This document shows positions 37,412 through 44,053 of a stretch of 64,000 nucleotides of DNA, one piece after another (within the stretch, counting starts at the first letter, position 1; every line of letters begins with the position of its first letter). The notes under the pieces are model-generated. The model saw only the letters and a list, made by a program, of their open reading frames with translations, did no database searches and was not told the DNA's origin. The position numbers and the translations under genes are program-made. This DNA is from Erythrobacter sp. F6033 (GTDB taxonomy: Bacteria > Pseudomonadota > Alphaproteobacteria > Sphingomonadales > Sphingomonadaceae): contig NZ_JALKAZ010000001.1 of NCBI RefSeq assembly GCF_023016005.1, forward strand, positions 2,046,001 through 2,110,000. Reading direction: 5' to 3'.

Positions 37412-39181
37412 TTACTGATTGTTTTGCCGACCAAGAAAACGCGGGATGCTGAGCGCTGGTGCATCATCACCATCGCTATCATCATCTTCGCCGTCCTCAT
37501 TCTCGTCCGAACCAGTCCGCGAAAGGTTCGCCATACGCTCGAACAGCGTGCTTCCACCAGCAGCTCCGCCGCCACCAGCCTGACCTGCATCGGCACCGCC
37601 GTCGCTCGCTTCACCGTCAGCGCCGCCGCCCAAGAGACTGCGTCTGCGTCCGCCAAGACGTGCCTCAACCGGCTTGTCTTCTTCTGCCAAACGATCGGCA
37701 TCAGAAAGGATTTCGTCGTTGCTGTCGCCCGCTGCCAGTTCACCTGTCAGGTCAAGCGTGCCCTCGTCGGCGCCCTCAGCAAAGCCTTCATCATCGGCTT
37801 GACCGTACAGGCTATCATCAGCCGGATCGGCCAGTTCTGCGTCGTCAGCTGTCGACAAATCATATGGCTCTTCTTCGACACCGCGAAGGCCAGCGAGTGG
37901 ATCGACGATGCCATCAACATCGTCGTCTTCCTCTCCCATATCGTCACCAGCCTGCATGCCGCTCAAATCGAACGGCTCGGCTTCGTTGGAGAGTTCGGGT
38001 TCTTTTTCCAGCTCTGGTTCTGGTTCTGGCTCCGGTTCGGCTTCGAATTCCGGCACTTCCGGAGCCGTCAGCGTCAGAGGCTCTTGCTCCTCAACCTCCA
38101 CCGGTGCTGGCTCTTCGGCCACCTCATTATCTTCGGGAAGCTCAAGCACAGGCCGCTTTGGCGCGCGCGAACTGGAAAGCGAAACCGCCGCAGAGCTATC
38201 AGCTTGCCCTGCAGCGCCAGGTTCAATTCCCGTAGCGACAACAGAAACTCGGATTTTACCATCAAGGTCAGGATTAAACGCGCTTCCCCAGATGATATTT
38301 GCATCTTCATCAACGAGCTCGCGAATATGGTTCGCAGCCTCATCAACTTCGAGAAGCTTCATGTCCTCGCCGCCGATGATCGAGATGATCACACCTTTGG
38401 CGCCCTGCATGCTGACACCGTCGAGCAGCGGGTTGGCGATGGCTTGCTCTGCAGCATCCAGAGCGCGCGTTTCGCCTTCACCCTCGCCCGTACCCATCAT
38501 CGCTTTACCCATCTCGCTCATAACAGAGCGGACATCGGCAAAGTCGAGGTTGATAAGACCCGGCATAACCATGAGATCGGTGATCGAGCGAACACCTTGT
38601 TGCAGGACTTCATCAGCAAGCTCGAAAGCTTCTTTGAAAGTCGTTTCAGCTTTCGCGATTAGGAACAGGTTCTGGTTCGGAATTACGATCAGAGTGTCGA
38701 CGTGGTCCTGAAGCTCGGCGATGCCAGCTTCCGCAGCACGCATGCGGCGCGTGCCTTCGAACAAGAATGGCTTGGTCACAACACCAACGGTCAACACGCC
38801 TTTGCGACGTGCGGCCTCTGCAATGACTGGAGCAGCGCCCGTACCGGTGCCGCCGCCCATGCCAGCCGCGATGAAGACCATGTTGACGCCCTCAAGCGCT
38901 TCTTCGACTTCGGCTACGGTTTCTTCAGCAGCGGCTTTGCCGACTTCTGGCCGGGCACCCGCGCCAAGGCCGCCTGTAATATCAGGACCAAGCTGGATGC
39001 GTTTTTCGGCAGGGCTGCTGCTCAATGCCTGCGCATCGGTGTTCGCAACAATGAACTCGACGCCTTCGATTTCTGAAGCGATCATGTTCGCAATCGCGTT
39101 GCCGCCCGCGCCGCCGATCCCGACCACAGTGATGCGGGGGCGAAGATCGTCAATGACTGCTGGTCCGATATTGATGCTCAT
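37412..39181 (-). CDS. ftsZ: Cell division protein FtsZ
   Basis: A 589-residue tubulin homologue forming the Z ring. The GTPase domain covers about 15-325, with GGAGGNAI near the N-terminus, the tubulin signature GGGTGTG at 109-115 and the T7 loop [11 protein letters not shown]. The linker from about 330 to 570 is very long and acidic (repeats of EPEP, DD and EE), then comes the conserved C-terminal peptide around [10 protein letters not shown], which binds FtsA. The usual length is about 380-500 residues, so the extra length is all linker. It is preceded by a 179-base gap after ftsA, which suggests its own promoter. Confidence 0.97.
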
Positions 39182-39360: not shown

Positions 39361-40695
39361 TCAGAAATACTCTTTCATAGCTCGAAACAGACGCGTGAAA
39401 CTGAACGTGCTGGCCAAGCCTGTTGCGCTGCCCCGATACTCTCGATGACGCGCGCCGATCGCGCGAATGTCAATTGGATCGTCAGCAGCATAAAGACAAA
39501 GCCCCGCCAATGTTGCAAAGCCTGGTGTAGAATGTGCTTCCGGCAGTCCCGTAAGCGAAGGCGCTCTGCCAACCCGCACCGGCATGCCAAGCGCACTCTG
39601 GGTGAATTCTGCAAGGCCCGCCAGCTCTGCGCCGCCGCCTGTCAGCACAACTTGGCCTGCACGGGATCCCACAAAACCCATTTCTTTGAGAGACTTGCCG
39701 ACCTCCCGTGTCAGCTGTGAAAGCTGTTGAGTCACGACTGAGACCAATTCAGCGCGAGGGATACGGTTTTTCTCATCAGCACCGCGTGCGACAGGGCCGG
39801 AGCCATCTTCATCCCAACCGTCATTCGGGCCATTGACCGGGATCATTTCGCGATGATCAGACGGGCTGGCGATGGCGGAACCAGATACGCATTTCAAACG
39901 CTCTGCCTGAAACCGCCTGATGCCAAATGCACTAGCGATTGCATCGGTGATGTCGCCCGACCCCATCGCGATGGCGCGAAGGCCCAACAGCATGCCGCCT
40001 GCGAAAACGGAAACATTTGTAACATCGGATCCGATTTCGACCAAAGCGACGCCCAGCTCGCGTTCTTCGAGCGAAAGACAGGCATAGCCGGATGCGAGCG
40101 GAGCCGCGACGACTCCTTCAACCTCAAGATGTGCACTTTGCACCGCCTCCATCAGGTTGCGCACAGGCGCACCATCGGCCAGCATCACGTGAACATCCAC
40201 GCCCAGTCGCTCAGCGTGCAGGTTGCGAGGATTAGCCACACCATGCGCGCCATCCAACGTGTAATGCGCCGGCTGAGCGTGAAGCACAGTGCGGCCATCC
40301 GGCTGGATCATATCGCGCGCTGCGACCAGCAAATGCTCGACATCGTCTTCTTCGATACGGCGGCCGCCGATCTCGATTTCAACCTTTGAAACACGGCTTT
40401 TGAGACCAGCACCCGCGCAGGCGATCCAAACGCTCTGCACGCTTTGGCCTGCATTCTTTTCCGCCCGCTCGACCGCATCACGGATAGCATATGTGGCGGC
40501 CTTCATATCGGTGACATAGCCGCGCTTGATACCTTGGCTGGCGCGGTGGCCGGATCCGAGGACGATCAGATCGCCGGTTTCAGTCTCACCCATGATCATC
40601 GCGGAAATACGGAACGAACCGATGTTCACCGCGCCGAAAACCTTGGCGAGGCGCGCGCGAGAGATGTTGGGTTTGGTCTTGGCCGCGATGCTCAT
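39361..40695 (-). CDS. ftsA: Cell division protein FtsA
   Basis: A 444-residue actin-like membrane tether for FtsZ. The N-terminal AVNIGSFRISAMI, the SHM-type 1C subdomain after IKRGYVTDM, and the phosphate loop VVLTGGGAELAGL are visible. The last 15 residues (about STFSFTRLFRAMKEYF) form the amphipathic membrane-targeting helix. A probable insertion of about 30 polar residues (NGPNDGWDEDGSGPVARG) distinguishes it from E. coli FtsA. The start overlaps the ftsQ stop by ATGA. Confidence 0.96.
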   Translation of the reverse strand: MSIAAKTKPNISRARLAKVFGAVNIGSFRISAMIMGETETGDLIVLGSGHRASQGIKRGYVTDMKAATYAIRDAVERAEKNAGQSVQSVWIACAGAGLKSRVSKVEIEIGGRRIEEDDVEHLLVAARDMIQPDGRTVLHAQPAHYTLDGAHGVANPRNLHAERLGVDVHVMLADGAPVRNLMEAVQSAHLEVEGVVAAPLASGYACLSLEERELGVALVEIGSDVTNVSVFAGGMLLGLRAIAMGSGDITDAIASAFGIRRFQAERLKCVSGSAIASPSDHREMIPVNGPNDGWDEDGSGPVARGADEKNRIPRAELVSVVTQQLSQLTREVGKSLKEMGFVGSRAGQVVLTGGGAELAGLAEFTQSALGMPVRVGRAPSLTGLPEAHSTPGFATLAGLCLYAADDPIDIRAIGARHREYRGSATGLASTFSFTRLFRAMKEYF

Positions 40696-41600
40696 TGAGA
40701 ATTTCCAGCAAGAGAGACTTCTTCTGAGCGTCCGGGCACGCGCATGTAAATTCGCGGTGGATCGCGCATGTCGAAATTCGCAACCTTCCCGCCTAGCAAA
40801 CGGTTTTGTCCGTCCATGCGAGCGAATTTGACGAGCGCCGAGGCTGCTTCGTCTTCGCCTTCGGGAAGAGCGAGCACCTGATCGCTTTTAAAGGTCACGT
40901 TCCAGCGACGGTTTCCGATCCACTCTGCACCAGCAACTTGCGGCTGCAATGCAGGCGCTGCGGCGAGGAGGCGGTCCAAGTTACTGACCTGTTTGGCCGA
41001 ACCTAGTCCGGAAATACGAAGCTGGCCTTCAACCTTGTCCGCCGCAACCGGGGCAAGCTCGTGCCCCTCGGCGTCGATCAACACCAGCCGATCGGCCTTT
41101 TCCAGAACTGCATGCGGTTCACGCTCCACGATATCAATCGCCAGTGTATCCGGCAGCTGCACCGAAACGCGCGCATCCGCGACCCATGGCAGTTCGAGCA
41201 GATCGTCCCGCAGCTGTTCAATATCGACTTGCGGCATCGGCTGATCGCGGCGTGCCAGCGCGCGGGCATAGACTTCACGTTCATCCATGCGGTTGGTGCC
41301 GGTAACGCGGACTTGCCTCACTTCAAAACCGGCATCGGCGGCGACCTGAGCGACTTGCGCCTGAGCCATTGCCGGAACGCCAGCAAGGTTCGCAATGACC
41401 CACGCCAGAGCCACCGCTCCGCCGATGATGATCGCCAGCCAGATGCGGCTCCATTGTTCTTCGGTGAAAGGCAGAATGCCCATTGCACCATCGACAAAAC
41501 CGGTTGTCTTCGCTTTGGCCCGGCGAGCGCCAGCGGCGCGGCTTTGCGATTTCGCTGCGCGGCGAACACCTTTGCCACTCGAACGCTTGATTTTAGCCAT
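40692..41600 (-). CDS. ftsQ: Cell division protein FtsQ
   Basis: A 302-residue bitopic protein. About 50 very basic residues form the cytoplasmic tail, followed by a transmembrane helix (IWLAIIIGGAVALAWVIANL) and a periplasmic POTRA domain (FEVRQVRVTGTNRMDEREVY) with the beta domain behind it. FtsQ links early and late divisome parts through FtsL/FtsB. The ATG at 41598-41600 overlaps ddl by eight bases. The N-terminal tail is longer and more basic than in E. coli. Confidence 0.94.
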   Translation of the reverse strand: MAKIKRSSGKGVRRAAKSQSRAAGARRAKAKTTGFVDGAMGILPFTEEQWSRIWLAIIIGGAVALAWVIANLAGVPAMAQAQVAQVAADAGFEVRQVRVTGTNRMDEREVYARALARRDQPMPQVDIEQLRDDLLELPWVADARVSVQLPDTLAIDIVEREPHAVLEKADRLVLIDAEGHELAPVAADKVEGQLRISGLGSAKQVSNLDRLLAAAPALQPQVAGAEWIGNRRWNVTFKSDQVLALPEGEDEAASALVKFARMDGQNRLLGGKVANFDMRDPPRIYMRVPGRSEEVSLAGNSQ

Positions 41601-42570
41601 GGGCGCCTTCTGTCTGTTTTGCCTTGTGCACACGGAGAGCTTCGCGAACGATCATGTCGCATAGCTCGGGATAGTCGATACCAGCATGACGGGCCTGCTC
41701 GGGTACAAGGCTGAGCGGAGTCATGCCCGGCTGTGTGTTGGTTTCTAGCACGAAAAGGCCTTCTTCGCCCTGTTCGTCATCCCAGCGATAGTCGGTTCTG
41801 CTCGTCCCGTGACAACCGAGCAGTTTGTGCGCGCGGATAGCATAGTCTTCGCACAGAGCGGCGATTTCAGCGGGAATTGCCGCCGGGCAAACATGTTGAG
41901 TGCGGCCCTCGGTGTATTTGTGTTCGTAATCGTAGAAGCCGGTTTCAATAATGAGCTCAGTCACGCCAAGCGCGCGAGGACCATCGGGGCCATCAATCAC
42001 TGCGGTCGTCAGTTCGCGGCCCTTGATAAAGGGCTCGGCAAGAAGCTCGTCAAATTCCTGCCACGGCCCTTTAGCGGTGGCCGCAATCGGATTTCCGACA
42101 TTGCTGTCTTCAGTCACAATCGCAACGCCGACTGATGAGCCTTCATTGACAGGTTTGAGCACGTAGGGACGCGGCAACGGATCGCGCTCGTACAGCTCAT
42201 TGGAAGGCACGATGCGTCCACCCGGCATCGGGATGCCATGCGGGACCAACGCTTGTTTGGTCAGTTGCTTGTCGATCGCGATTACGGAGGTCGCCACACC
42301 TGAATGGGTATAGGGTATGCCCATCAGATCGAGCATACCCTGAACTGTGCCGTCTTCACCCGGGACCCCGTGGAGAGCGTTAAACACAACGTCGGGAGCG
42401 GCTTCCGCGATTTTCTGCGCCACATCGCGGCCCATATCGATTTCGGTAACGCGGTGCCCTTTGCTTTCGAGAGCATCGGCAACGCCCGCGCCGCTCATCA
42501 AAGACACTTCGCGCTCATTGGCCCAGCCACCCATCAAGACGGCAATGTGGAGAGGCGATTTATCGATCAT
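41593..42570 (-). CDS. ddl: D-alanine--D-alanine ligase
   Basis: A 325-residue ATP-grasp ligase making the D-Ala-D-Ala dipeptide for peptidoglycan. Visible parts are HIAVLMGGWANEREVSLMSG (N-terminal domain), NALHGVPGEDGTVQG, KPVNEGSSVGVAIV and the metal-binding region FVLETNTQPGMTPLSLVPEQ. The Ser-Val-Gly loop fits a D-alanine ligase, not the D-lactate type. It starts within the stop of the DUF4262 gene and ends within the ftsQ start. Confidence 0.96.
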   Translation of the reverse strand: MIDKSPLHIAVLMGGWANEREVSLMSGAGVADALESKGHRVTEIDMGRDVAQKIAEAAPDVVFNALHGVPGEDGTVQGMLDLMGIPYTHSGVATSVIAIDKQLTKQALVPHGIPMPGGRIVPSNELYERDPLPRPYVLKPVNEGSSVGVAIVTEDSNVGNPIAATAKGPWQEFDELLAEPFIKGRELTTAVIDGPDGPRALGVTELIIETGFYDYEHKYTEGRTQHVCPAAIPAEIAALCEDYAIRAHKLLGCHGTSRTDYRWDDEQGEEGLFVLETNTQPGMTPLSLVPEQARHAGIDYPELCDMIVREALRVHKAKQTEGAHG

Positions 42571-43082
42571 ATTGCTGCCTCATACAGTGCCGGCTGGTCC
42601 GCTTTGACCCAACCTTCGCAGCCGTCTCCCCAAGGGAAGACACCCTTTGAATCCGGCCAAACCAGCATCGCAACATCTTCGAGATCAGAGTTCATCTGGG
42701 TCCGATGGAACCAGATAGCCGAATTAAAGAAAGCGTCAGTGATGTTGCTCGGATCGACCATTCTTACGATCCCATCATAGTCACCGAAGAAGCTGTCGAG
42801 GCGCGTTCCTTCGTCGAGCTTCTGACCCGCCGCGCACAGCGCAAGAAGCTGGTTGATGGCAGGACCGCAAAAATCACCGGGAAGGCCGAAGATAACAACT
42901 TCAGGCACGCCGGGGCGGCCTGTCTTCGCCAAAGTCTTCGTAAATCCGATCGAGTATACGAAGTTGGGGTGTTCGTCGTCAGGATCGAAAACTCCGTTTA
43001 GATGGCAACCATGCTTTTCAACGTTTGATATGAGATCGCGTTCAAACTTCGACAAATTATCTTTCTTGAACCAATTTCTCAT
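42567..43082 (-). CDS. DUF4262 protein inside the murein operon
   Basis: A 171-residue soluble protein. Its core resembles DUF4262: ISNVEKHGCHLNGVF, FVYSIGFTKT, EVVIFGLPGDFCGPAINQL and a C-terminal VWPDSKGVFPWGDGCEGW. DUF4262 has no known function and is usually not tied to any pathway. Here it lies between murB and ddl, with ATGA overlaps on both sides, so its ribosomes are supplied by murB translation and passed on to ddl. The start MRNWFK is chosen because of that overlap; longer frames run antisense-like through murB. Base composition matches the neighbours. A cell-wall role is inferred from position alone. Confidence 0.85.
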   Translation of the reverse strand: MRNWFKKDNLSKFERDLISNVEKHGCHLNGVFDPDDEHPNFVYSIGFTKTLAKTGRPGVPEVVIFGLPGDFCGPAINQLLALCAAGQKLDEGTRLDSFFGDYDGIVRMVDPSNITDAFFNSAIWFHRTQMNSDLEDVAMLVWPDSKGVFPWGDGCEGWVKADQPALYEAAI

Positions 43083-44053
43083 GGCCGACCCACCCGTTGG
43101 ATTTCCCATTCGAGCGTGACACCGGATTGTTTGTAGACCCGCTCGCGCACTTCTTCGCCTAGGGCTTCGATATCTGCGCTGGTGGCATTGCCGGTGTTGA
43201 TCAGGAAATTGGTGTGTTTTTCGCTCACTTGCGCCCCGCCAATCTGAAAGCCTCTGCAACCGGCTGCATCGACGAGTTGCCACGCCTTGCCGCCTTCGGG
43301 GTTTTTGAATGTAGAGCCGCCGGTCTTCGTCCGCAGTGGCTGAGACTCTTCGCGAGCCTGCGCGATCCGGTCCATTTCTGCGCCAATATCATCCGGCTTC
43401 CCTGGAACGCCCTTAAAGCGCGCAGAGACAACAACGGCGCCTTCCGGCAATGCGGAATGACGGTATGTGTACTGAAGATCGACAACAGGCAGTGTCGCAA
43501 GCTCGCCATCGGGCATAATAACATCGCAATCGATCAGGATGTCGGCAACTTCCCGGCCATACGCGCCGCCGTTCATACGGACAAAACCGCCGACTGTGCC
43601 CGGAATACCGCGTAAGAATTCCAATCCGGCAATGCCCGCATCGCGGGCTTTCGAAGCTGCGAGAATACCGGGGGCGCCGCCTCCGCAGGTCACTTCAAGT
43701 TCGCCAGTGACTTCTACGCCAGCGAACGGCTTGCCCAACCGAACAACAACGCCTGGTACGCCGCCATCGCGTATAATCAGGTTTGAACCCAGCCCGAGCG
43801 CCATGACCGGCATCGTCCCGCCGAGCCGCTCCATAAACAGTTTGAGATCGTCCAGATCAGCCGGCTCAAACAGCCAATCGGCCTTACCGCCTGTCTTAAA
43901 CCAAACGAGTTTGGCCAATGGCGCGTTACAGGTCAGATTGCCTCGAACGTCATCGAGCGAGACAGGCGCAGCAACCGCGCCTTCGACCGTACATGTCGGC
44001 GCCGCGCCAGTGTCTCTGTCAAACCAGTCGTCAGGTTGCTCCATTGCGATCAT
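43079..44053 (-). CDS. murB: UDP-N-acetylenolpyruvoylglucosamine reductase
   Basis: A 324-residue FAD enzyme reducing UDP-GlcNAc-enolpyruvate to UDP-MurNAc. FAD-binding text includes [29 protein letters not shown] and [21 protein letters not shown]; the proton-donor Ser is in [10 protein letters not shown], and the C-terminal domain has [20 protein letters not shown]. The N-terminal 30 residues before DVRGN are extra and may be unstructured; a second ATG three codons on is an alternative start. The start overlaps the murC stop by four bases. Confidence 0.95.

Follow-up and report, generated by a model that had tools for sequence, protein, structure and literature searches.

A DUF4262 gene at the murB–ddl junction of Sphingomonadales belongs to one lineage and appears to be exchanged between species

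In bacteria, the division and cell-wall (dcw) cluster counts among the more rigid gene blocks. Here we describe a gene for a DUF4262 protein that lies inside this cluster, in the interval between murB and ddl (the slot), in a 64,000-nucleotide stretch of the genome of Erythrobacter sp. F6033 (the window), and whose versions appear to have been exchanged between species of Sphingomonadales.

Several described systems resemble this locus in part. Bacterial proteins of the SuFu superfamily are presented as versatile immunity proteins, with conserved residues GxS, E, E and DxxR, in the excerpted text of PMC3482391. With this group (SUFU/Imm-SuFu, PF05076; bacterial structure 3k5j) the slot gene shares patchy presence, fast divergence and, in two separate structural models, a predicted resemblance of fold; it differs in having no Pfam SUFU match, no profile link and no toxin linked to it in the slot. 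Epsilon/zeta systems (PezAT) are an earlier example of a protein antitoxin that counters a murein-precursor poison, as zeta toxins phosphorylate UDP-GlcNAc and so poison murein-precursor synthesis (excerpts of PMC3062530), but the slot has no zeta gene and a zeta-like neighbour was seen in one non-slot case only. A parallel in position comes from rickettsial endosymbionts, another bacterial group, in which a hypothetical coding sequence is variably present between murB and ddlB; the likeness is one of position, the protein family not being stated in the excerpted text (PMC4324946), and it indicates that other bacteria besides Sphingomonads use this junction loosely. Among the literature searched (titles and starts of abstracts), no paper was found on a DUF4262 gene in the murB–ddl slot, and the word DUF4262 occurred in just one, whose excerpts name such a protein WpsD within an Actinoplanes exopolysaccharide cluster (PMC13390465). 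With the DUF4262 family itself (PF14081) the slot protein shares the whole domain and the conserved Y-S-x-G, P-E, W-P and P-W positions, but it belongs to a separate lineage found only at the murB–ddl slot.

A recurrent but accessory gene at the murB–ddl junction

The window protein matched PF14081 well above the Pfam gathering cut-off (87.9 bits against 28; residues 20–155, profile positions 1–126 of 127) and matched no NCBIfam model. Its reading frame, which ends in YEAAI before the stop codon, is the only DUF4262 copy in the window genome. Together with the MurB and Ddl profile matches, this upholds the sequence-only reading that a DUF4262 gene occupies the murB–ddl interval and shares an ATGA overlap with each neighbour. 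By its organisation, on the same strand as neighbours that it overlaps, it belongs to the dcw operon. A spurious reading frame is ruled out by the PF14081 match, by the recurrent position and overlaps, and by the substitution ratios given below.

The coupling recurs at the murB–ddl interval across many genera, as the comparison of genus, family and named genomes showed; an oddity confined to the window genome is ruled out by the copies found at each of these levels. Within the genus (named records with identical proteins include Erythrobacter and Porphyrobacter), DUF4262 was present in 13 of 114 genomes, with 14 copies, nine of which, in nine genomes, lay in the slot; no murB or ddl was found alongside the other five. 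The family sample gave 33 copies in 32 of 397 genomes: 17 in the slot, 13 elsewhere, one truncated where its contig stops just past murB (L275) and two not fetched. In a series of one genome per genus outside the window genus (G138–G230; G144, G173 and G218 were omitted for want of a usable ddl, and L274 and L275 lie outside it), all the remaining 90 genomes were scored, L209 being mis-scored by the script, and the slot was filled in three. Outside the family DUF4262 is rare (5 of 385 genomes in the class sample, counting the window genome, and 6 of 398 in the phylum sample, counting the window genome and a member of its family). Among named genomes, a pattern scan returned 45 loci, 32 of them in the slot and 31 of these titled Sphingomonadales, although the scan profile was built from slot proteins and thus biased towards the slot, whereas the family search was unbiased. 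Slot-bearing taxa include Qipengyuania, Novosphingobium (for one, N. beihaiensis), Sphingomonas (for one, S. pituitosa), Sphingobium, Sandaracinobacter, Citromicrobium and Stakelama; in one slot locus (L171), Ddl nests with that of Sphingobium in the Ddl tree. The remaining 13 named loci, from Caulobacterales, Hyphomonadaceae and Pseudovibrio among others, had no murB or ddl. At 9 of 114 genus genomes and 3 of 90 family genomes, the slot gene is not a dcw core gene in the sense of one present in nearly all members of a clade.

Where it occurs, the gene is intact and closely fitted. All 44 distinct slot proteins were full length (162–175 residues), and a 4-base overlap was called with murB in 42 of 44 copies and with ddl in 40, with scripts that took the start codon nearest the expected place and so favour such a call. 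Nei–Gojobori (NG86) ratios of non-synonymous to synonymous substitution (dN/dS) for DUF4262 were 0.07–0.27 in nine of 12 pairs, synonymous change being saturated in the other three; MurB and Ddl gave 0.05–0.27 in the same 12 pairs. These ratios indicate that DUF4262 is under purifying selection in all measurable pairs.

The interval was also surveyed across the genus. From 100 sampled genomes (14 further ones lay outside the sample), two of which had no ddl match and four of which had a match but were not fetched (G008, G016, G036 and G106), 96 loci were given and 95 scored, L137 having no murB. Ten rows from nine genomes held the slot gene (G076 twice) and 85 rows from 84 genomes did not (G066 twice). 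In these unfilled rows murB and ddl overlapped by 4 bases in 66 and by 1 base in two, and were separated by 1–10 bases in six, by 22 in one and by 91–241 in ten. The gene is missing from close relatives of bearers (G110, G018, G097, G111 and G017), and comparison of filled with empty relatives (G000/G110, G076/G097, G061/G111 and G089/G017) placed the break at the stop and start codons. As murB and ddl overlap directly in these close relatives, the slot gene is accessory.

The junction itself is permissive. Among 60 genus loci without a slot DUF4262, gaps of more than 20 bases occurred in 10 of 59 murB–ddl junctions, 1 of 57 murC–murB junctions and 0 of 42 ddl–ftsQ junctions, making murB–ddl the loose one of the three compared. 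The long gaps in the genus hold REP (repetitive extragenic palindromic)-like stretches or, in two genomes (G104 and G094), a small membrane-protein reading frame; by eye, no decayed DUF4262 was seen in the gaps of 91–241 bases. In the one-per-genus series murB and ddl overlapped by 4 or more bases in 67 of 90 genomes and, besides DUF4262, no gap held a clear gene, the longest open stretch seen by eye being 61 codons. DUF4262 has this gap nearly to itself as coding cargo, and a general cargo hot spot is not supported, DUF4262 being the sole clear coding insert in the 90 junctions.

Two kinds of non-DUF4262 insert were noted at the junction. Palindromic REP-like stretches of 91–141 bases were recognized by eye in L085, L107, L119, L106, L082, L114 and L103. 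In two genus genomes that lack DUF4262, membrane-protein-like reading frames of 70–81 residues start within the murB stop overlap, in L018 (1259–1503) and L121 (2233–2447 of the coding strand); the one in G104 only weakly resembles Phage_holin_3_6 (E 0.0049, below the cut-off).

One lineage, versions apparently exchanged in place

In trees of DUF4262 the 44 distinct slot proteins fell on one side of a branch opposite 25 proteins from elsewhere (99/98), or opposite 40 in a larger tree (97/98). The first tree lacked ten copies that tblastn with the window protein had missed; the larger one added nine of these and six further copies (L286 only in part). Excluded from both were L005 and L051, each interrupted by in-frame stops, together with the two unfetched family copies (G344 and the second of G313). 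The slot proteins therefore form, on this phylogeny, one clade separate from the non-slot copies, which rules out separate re-insertions of different DUF4262 genes. The pair Cys26 and Cys83 was present in 37 of the 44 slot rows and in none of the 25 non-slot rows. The excluded L051 copy (1501–1872), a non-slot DUF4262 with an in-frame TGA, is likely a pseudogene.

The nine slot proteins of the genus do not form a clade of their own (approximately unbiased (AU) test, p 1.15e-4 with the slot-only tree, 3.75e-5 with the 69-row one), whereas in the Ddl tree 34 genus rows stay in one group, though without strong support (90/77). Over 946 pairs, Spearman correlations of identity were 0.108 for DUF4262 with Ddl and 0.171 for DUF4262 with MurB, and only 0.279 for MurB with Ddl. 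The two species G123 and G063 are 97% identical in MurB and 96% in Ddl but 38% identical in DUF4262; their DNA is 93% identical in the 3′ part of murB, 53% in the DUF4262 gene and 92% in the 5′ part of ddl. Similarly, Sphingobium AP50 and S. lactosutens are 74–100% alike per window of comparison outside the gene over about 8 kb and 48–60% within it. The converse was seen in L147/L151, in which the gene is 84–90% alike and the surroundings 50–87%, and in L155/L153 and L062/L058 (mutually non-independent), in which the gene is 91–98% alike and similarity drops on both sides. These comparisons show that close relatives differ at the slot: some have the gene, some lack it and some carry a distant version in its place. 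The G+C content of the window copy (51.4%, against 57–60% in seven mur and fts genes measured alongside) fits a late arrival.

The simplest account of the exchange would be homologous recombination in the conserved sequences of murB and ddl on either side, which would also explain why the address of the gene never changes. 

A related pattern was noted in murB. Across the genus loci (L006–L035 and L079–L138) the identity of murB to the window copy is bimodal, at about 62–68% or 69–90%, and that of ddl stays at 75–94%. The 34 genus rows cannot be held together in the murB tree (AU p 6e-4), and murB of L134 groups with that of Sphingobium (90/76). Within the genus, murB itself seems to have been replaced in place.

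What the slot protein may do

We tentatively favour, while thinking it somewhat likelier to be wrong than right, a position-locked binding protein that is exchanged by recombination, is coupled to MurB and Ddl and may guard murein-precursor synthesis. Data underlie its position, exchange and selection; co-expression, binding and guarding are inferences. The slot gene would be co-transcribed with murB and ddl and translated in step with them. For two DUF4262 clades the AlphaFold models are SUFU-like, suggesting that the product may be a non-enzymatic protein-binding module; the DUF4262 family would thereby gain a likely fold and a tractable system. In the weakest step, the product might guard cytoplasmic murein-precursor synthesis, or act as an immunity protein, by binding an incoming or resident inhibitor of the pathway or by shielding one of its enzymes, and versions would be swapped because the attacker changes. 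Patchiness, swaps of distant versions, purifying selection within versions and the murB and ddl overlaps fit a guard or immunity protein, and fit less well a factor tuning wall enzymes or a sheltered passenger.

Three marks of a SUFU-like immunity protein were looked for and not found. The window protein had no match to Pfam PF05076; hhalign against 24 bacterial SUFU proteins gave a probability of 0.5 and no profile link; and, unlike a polymorphic-toxin immunity gene with its adjoining toxin gene or cassette, the slot gene had no toxin gene beside it, all 56 slot loci having murB and ddl as the neighbours. Nor did the protein resemble a known anti-phage defence protein, with no PADLOC family matched at E up to 1. 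In its fullest form the idea would make the murB–ddl junction of Sphingomonadales a dedicated exchange slot for murein-precursor guards, an immunity locus inside the division/cell-wall operon, whose versions recognize different wall-directed toxins or inhibitors and are swapped by flank recombination. We consider this form rather improbable; were it true, the guard would always be produced in proportion to the enzymes under its protection.

A reading that we think unlikely is that the gene is a sheltered passenger: its function would have nothing to do with the wall, and it would benefit from steady dcw expression at the one insert-tolerant junction, where flank recombination would retain it. 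The excess of long gaps at murB–ddl, the REP-like stretches and small membrane reading frames there, and the surroundings of the non-slot genes are in its favour: in 17 non-slot loci and six of 20 plasmid copies whose context was read (one record being unannotated), DUF4262 lay in scattered places, and most neighbours were unrelated (a DEAD helicase, topoisomerase I and RNase R, endonuclease III). A permissive site should, however, hold many kinds of gene, yet only DUF4262 was clear among the 90 junctions, and within the genus just two other small reading frames were found. The sequence-only reading had allowed for a passenger gene; a random passenger alone accounts poorly for recurrent coupling and near-sole cargo. 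Scatter over random positions, named there as evidence against a wall role, holds for the inspected non-slot copies and not for the slot lineage, which is fixed in place.

We think it rather unlikely that the product is a modulator that tunes precursor flow under some condition by binding MurB, Ddl or another Mur enzyme nearby, a control that species without it would lack. The 4-base overlaps in nearly every copy, the predicted SUFU-like binding fold, purifying selection and the near-monopoly of the gap argue for it, as do WpsD in an exopolysaccharide cluster (excerpts of PMC13390465) and a Geoalkalibacter plasmid (L279, 3926–5223) on which a transglycosylase SLT gene lies directly downstream of DUF4262. 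Against it, versions only 38–46% alike replace one another beside Ddl proteins 96–97% identical, so that no co-adaptation with the flanking enzymes is seen; identity of DUF4262 correlates weakly with that of MurB and Ddl; and most sampled species lack the gene. The suggested role in murein supply or its regulation is accordingly narrowed: the coupling is real and recurrent, but an obligate supply step is unlikely because the gene is mostly absent and its versions are replaced without matching change in MurB or Ddl, and a regulatory or protective role tied to wall enzymes is possible. Absence from the same place in close relatives, which had been named as counting against such a role, was found as far as absence itself goes.

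Purely vertical descent of an old dcw gene, lost many times independently and diverging fast, would be in keeping with the single slot clade and with clean loss boundaries (4-base overlaps at both ends of the filled site, once in the empty site); it is very improbable given the rejected genus-level monophyly, distant versions beside near-identical MurB and Ddl, and stretches in which the gene is more alike than its flanks.

A single-gene slot whose occupant is gained, lost and replaced by distant versions of one family, while its overlaps are kept, points to selection on something that attacks or tunes murein-precursor synthesis.

Non-slot copies, phage relatives and window features

Pfam scans of 14 genes neighbouring non-slot copies gave one toxin-like case. 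In L166 (4007–5010) a Zeta_toxin-like gene (PF06414, E 3.7e-12) follows and overlaps the DUF4262 gene, the only such neighbour among those scanned; this single case is possibly a toxin–antitoxin-like pair, and is a lead because zeta toxins act on murein-precursor synthesis. A genus-wide search for a link to zeta toxins is uninformative, since PF06414 matched all 14 control genomes as well as 110 of the 114 in the genus, presumably through generic P-loop kinases. In another bacterium of the same family (L060, 1468–3329) a CAP12-PCTIR_TIR-like gene after a non-slot DUF4262 (E 4.9e-5; 23.7 bits, cut-off 24.7) hints at a defence neighbourhood, and in L168 (3995–7536) lpxB, lpxI and an lpxA-like gene lie on the strand opposite DUF4262.

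Searching PDB sequences with the DUF4262 profile returned nothing below E 0.3, and tblastn with the window protein found no phage relative. A phage counterpart is phrog_17488, a PHROG of unknown function (E 1.5e-7). A fold search with the window model listed DUF4262-like folds in Ralstonia phage phiRSL1, in Pseudomonas phages Noxifer, PhiPA3, 201phi2-1 and Phabio, in Erwinia phage PhiEaH1 and in Sphingobium phage Lacusarx. Sphingomonad phages may carry or donate DUF4262-like genes.

Table 1. The slot gene, its overlaps and its flanking genes in the window (pLDDT, predicted local distance difference test).
Feature	Position	Strand	Basis
DUF4262 gene, 171 residues, accessory and apparently exchanged	42567..43082	-	PF14081 E 8.5e-25; AlphaFold model pLDDT 93.3; predicted fold match SUFU
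ATGA overlap, murB stop TGA with DUF4262 start ATG	43079..43082	-	Sequence
ATGA overlap, DUF4262 stop TGA with ddl start ATG	42567..42570	-	Sequence
murB, left flank of slot	43079..44053	-	NF010480, 374 bits
ddl, right flank of slot	41593..42570	-	NF002378, 370 bits
ftsQ, next dcw cluster gene	40692..41633	-	POTRA_1 and FtsQ_DivIB_C

The order on the minus strand of the window is murG, murC, murB, the DUF4262 gene, ddl, ftsQ, ftsA and ftsZ, with murB, ddl and ftsQ assigned from profile matches and murG, murC, ftsA and ftsZ from gene order and by eye. The reading frame in the ftsZ position (37412–39181), named by eye, encodes 589 residues with a long acidic C-terminal stretch.
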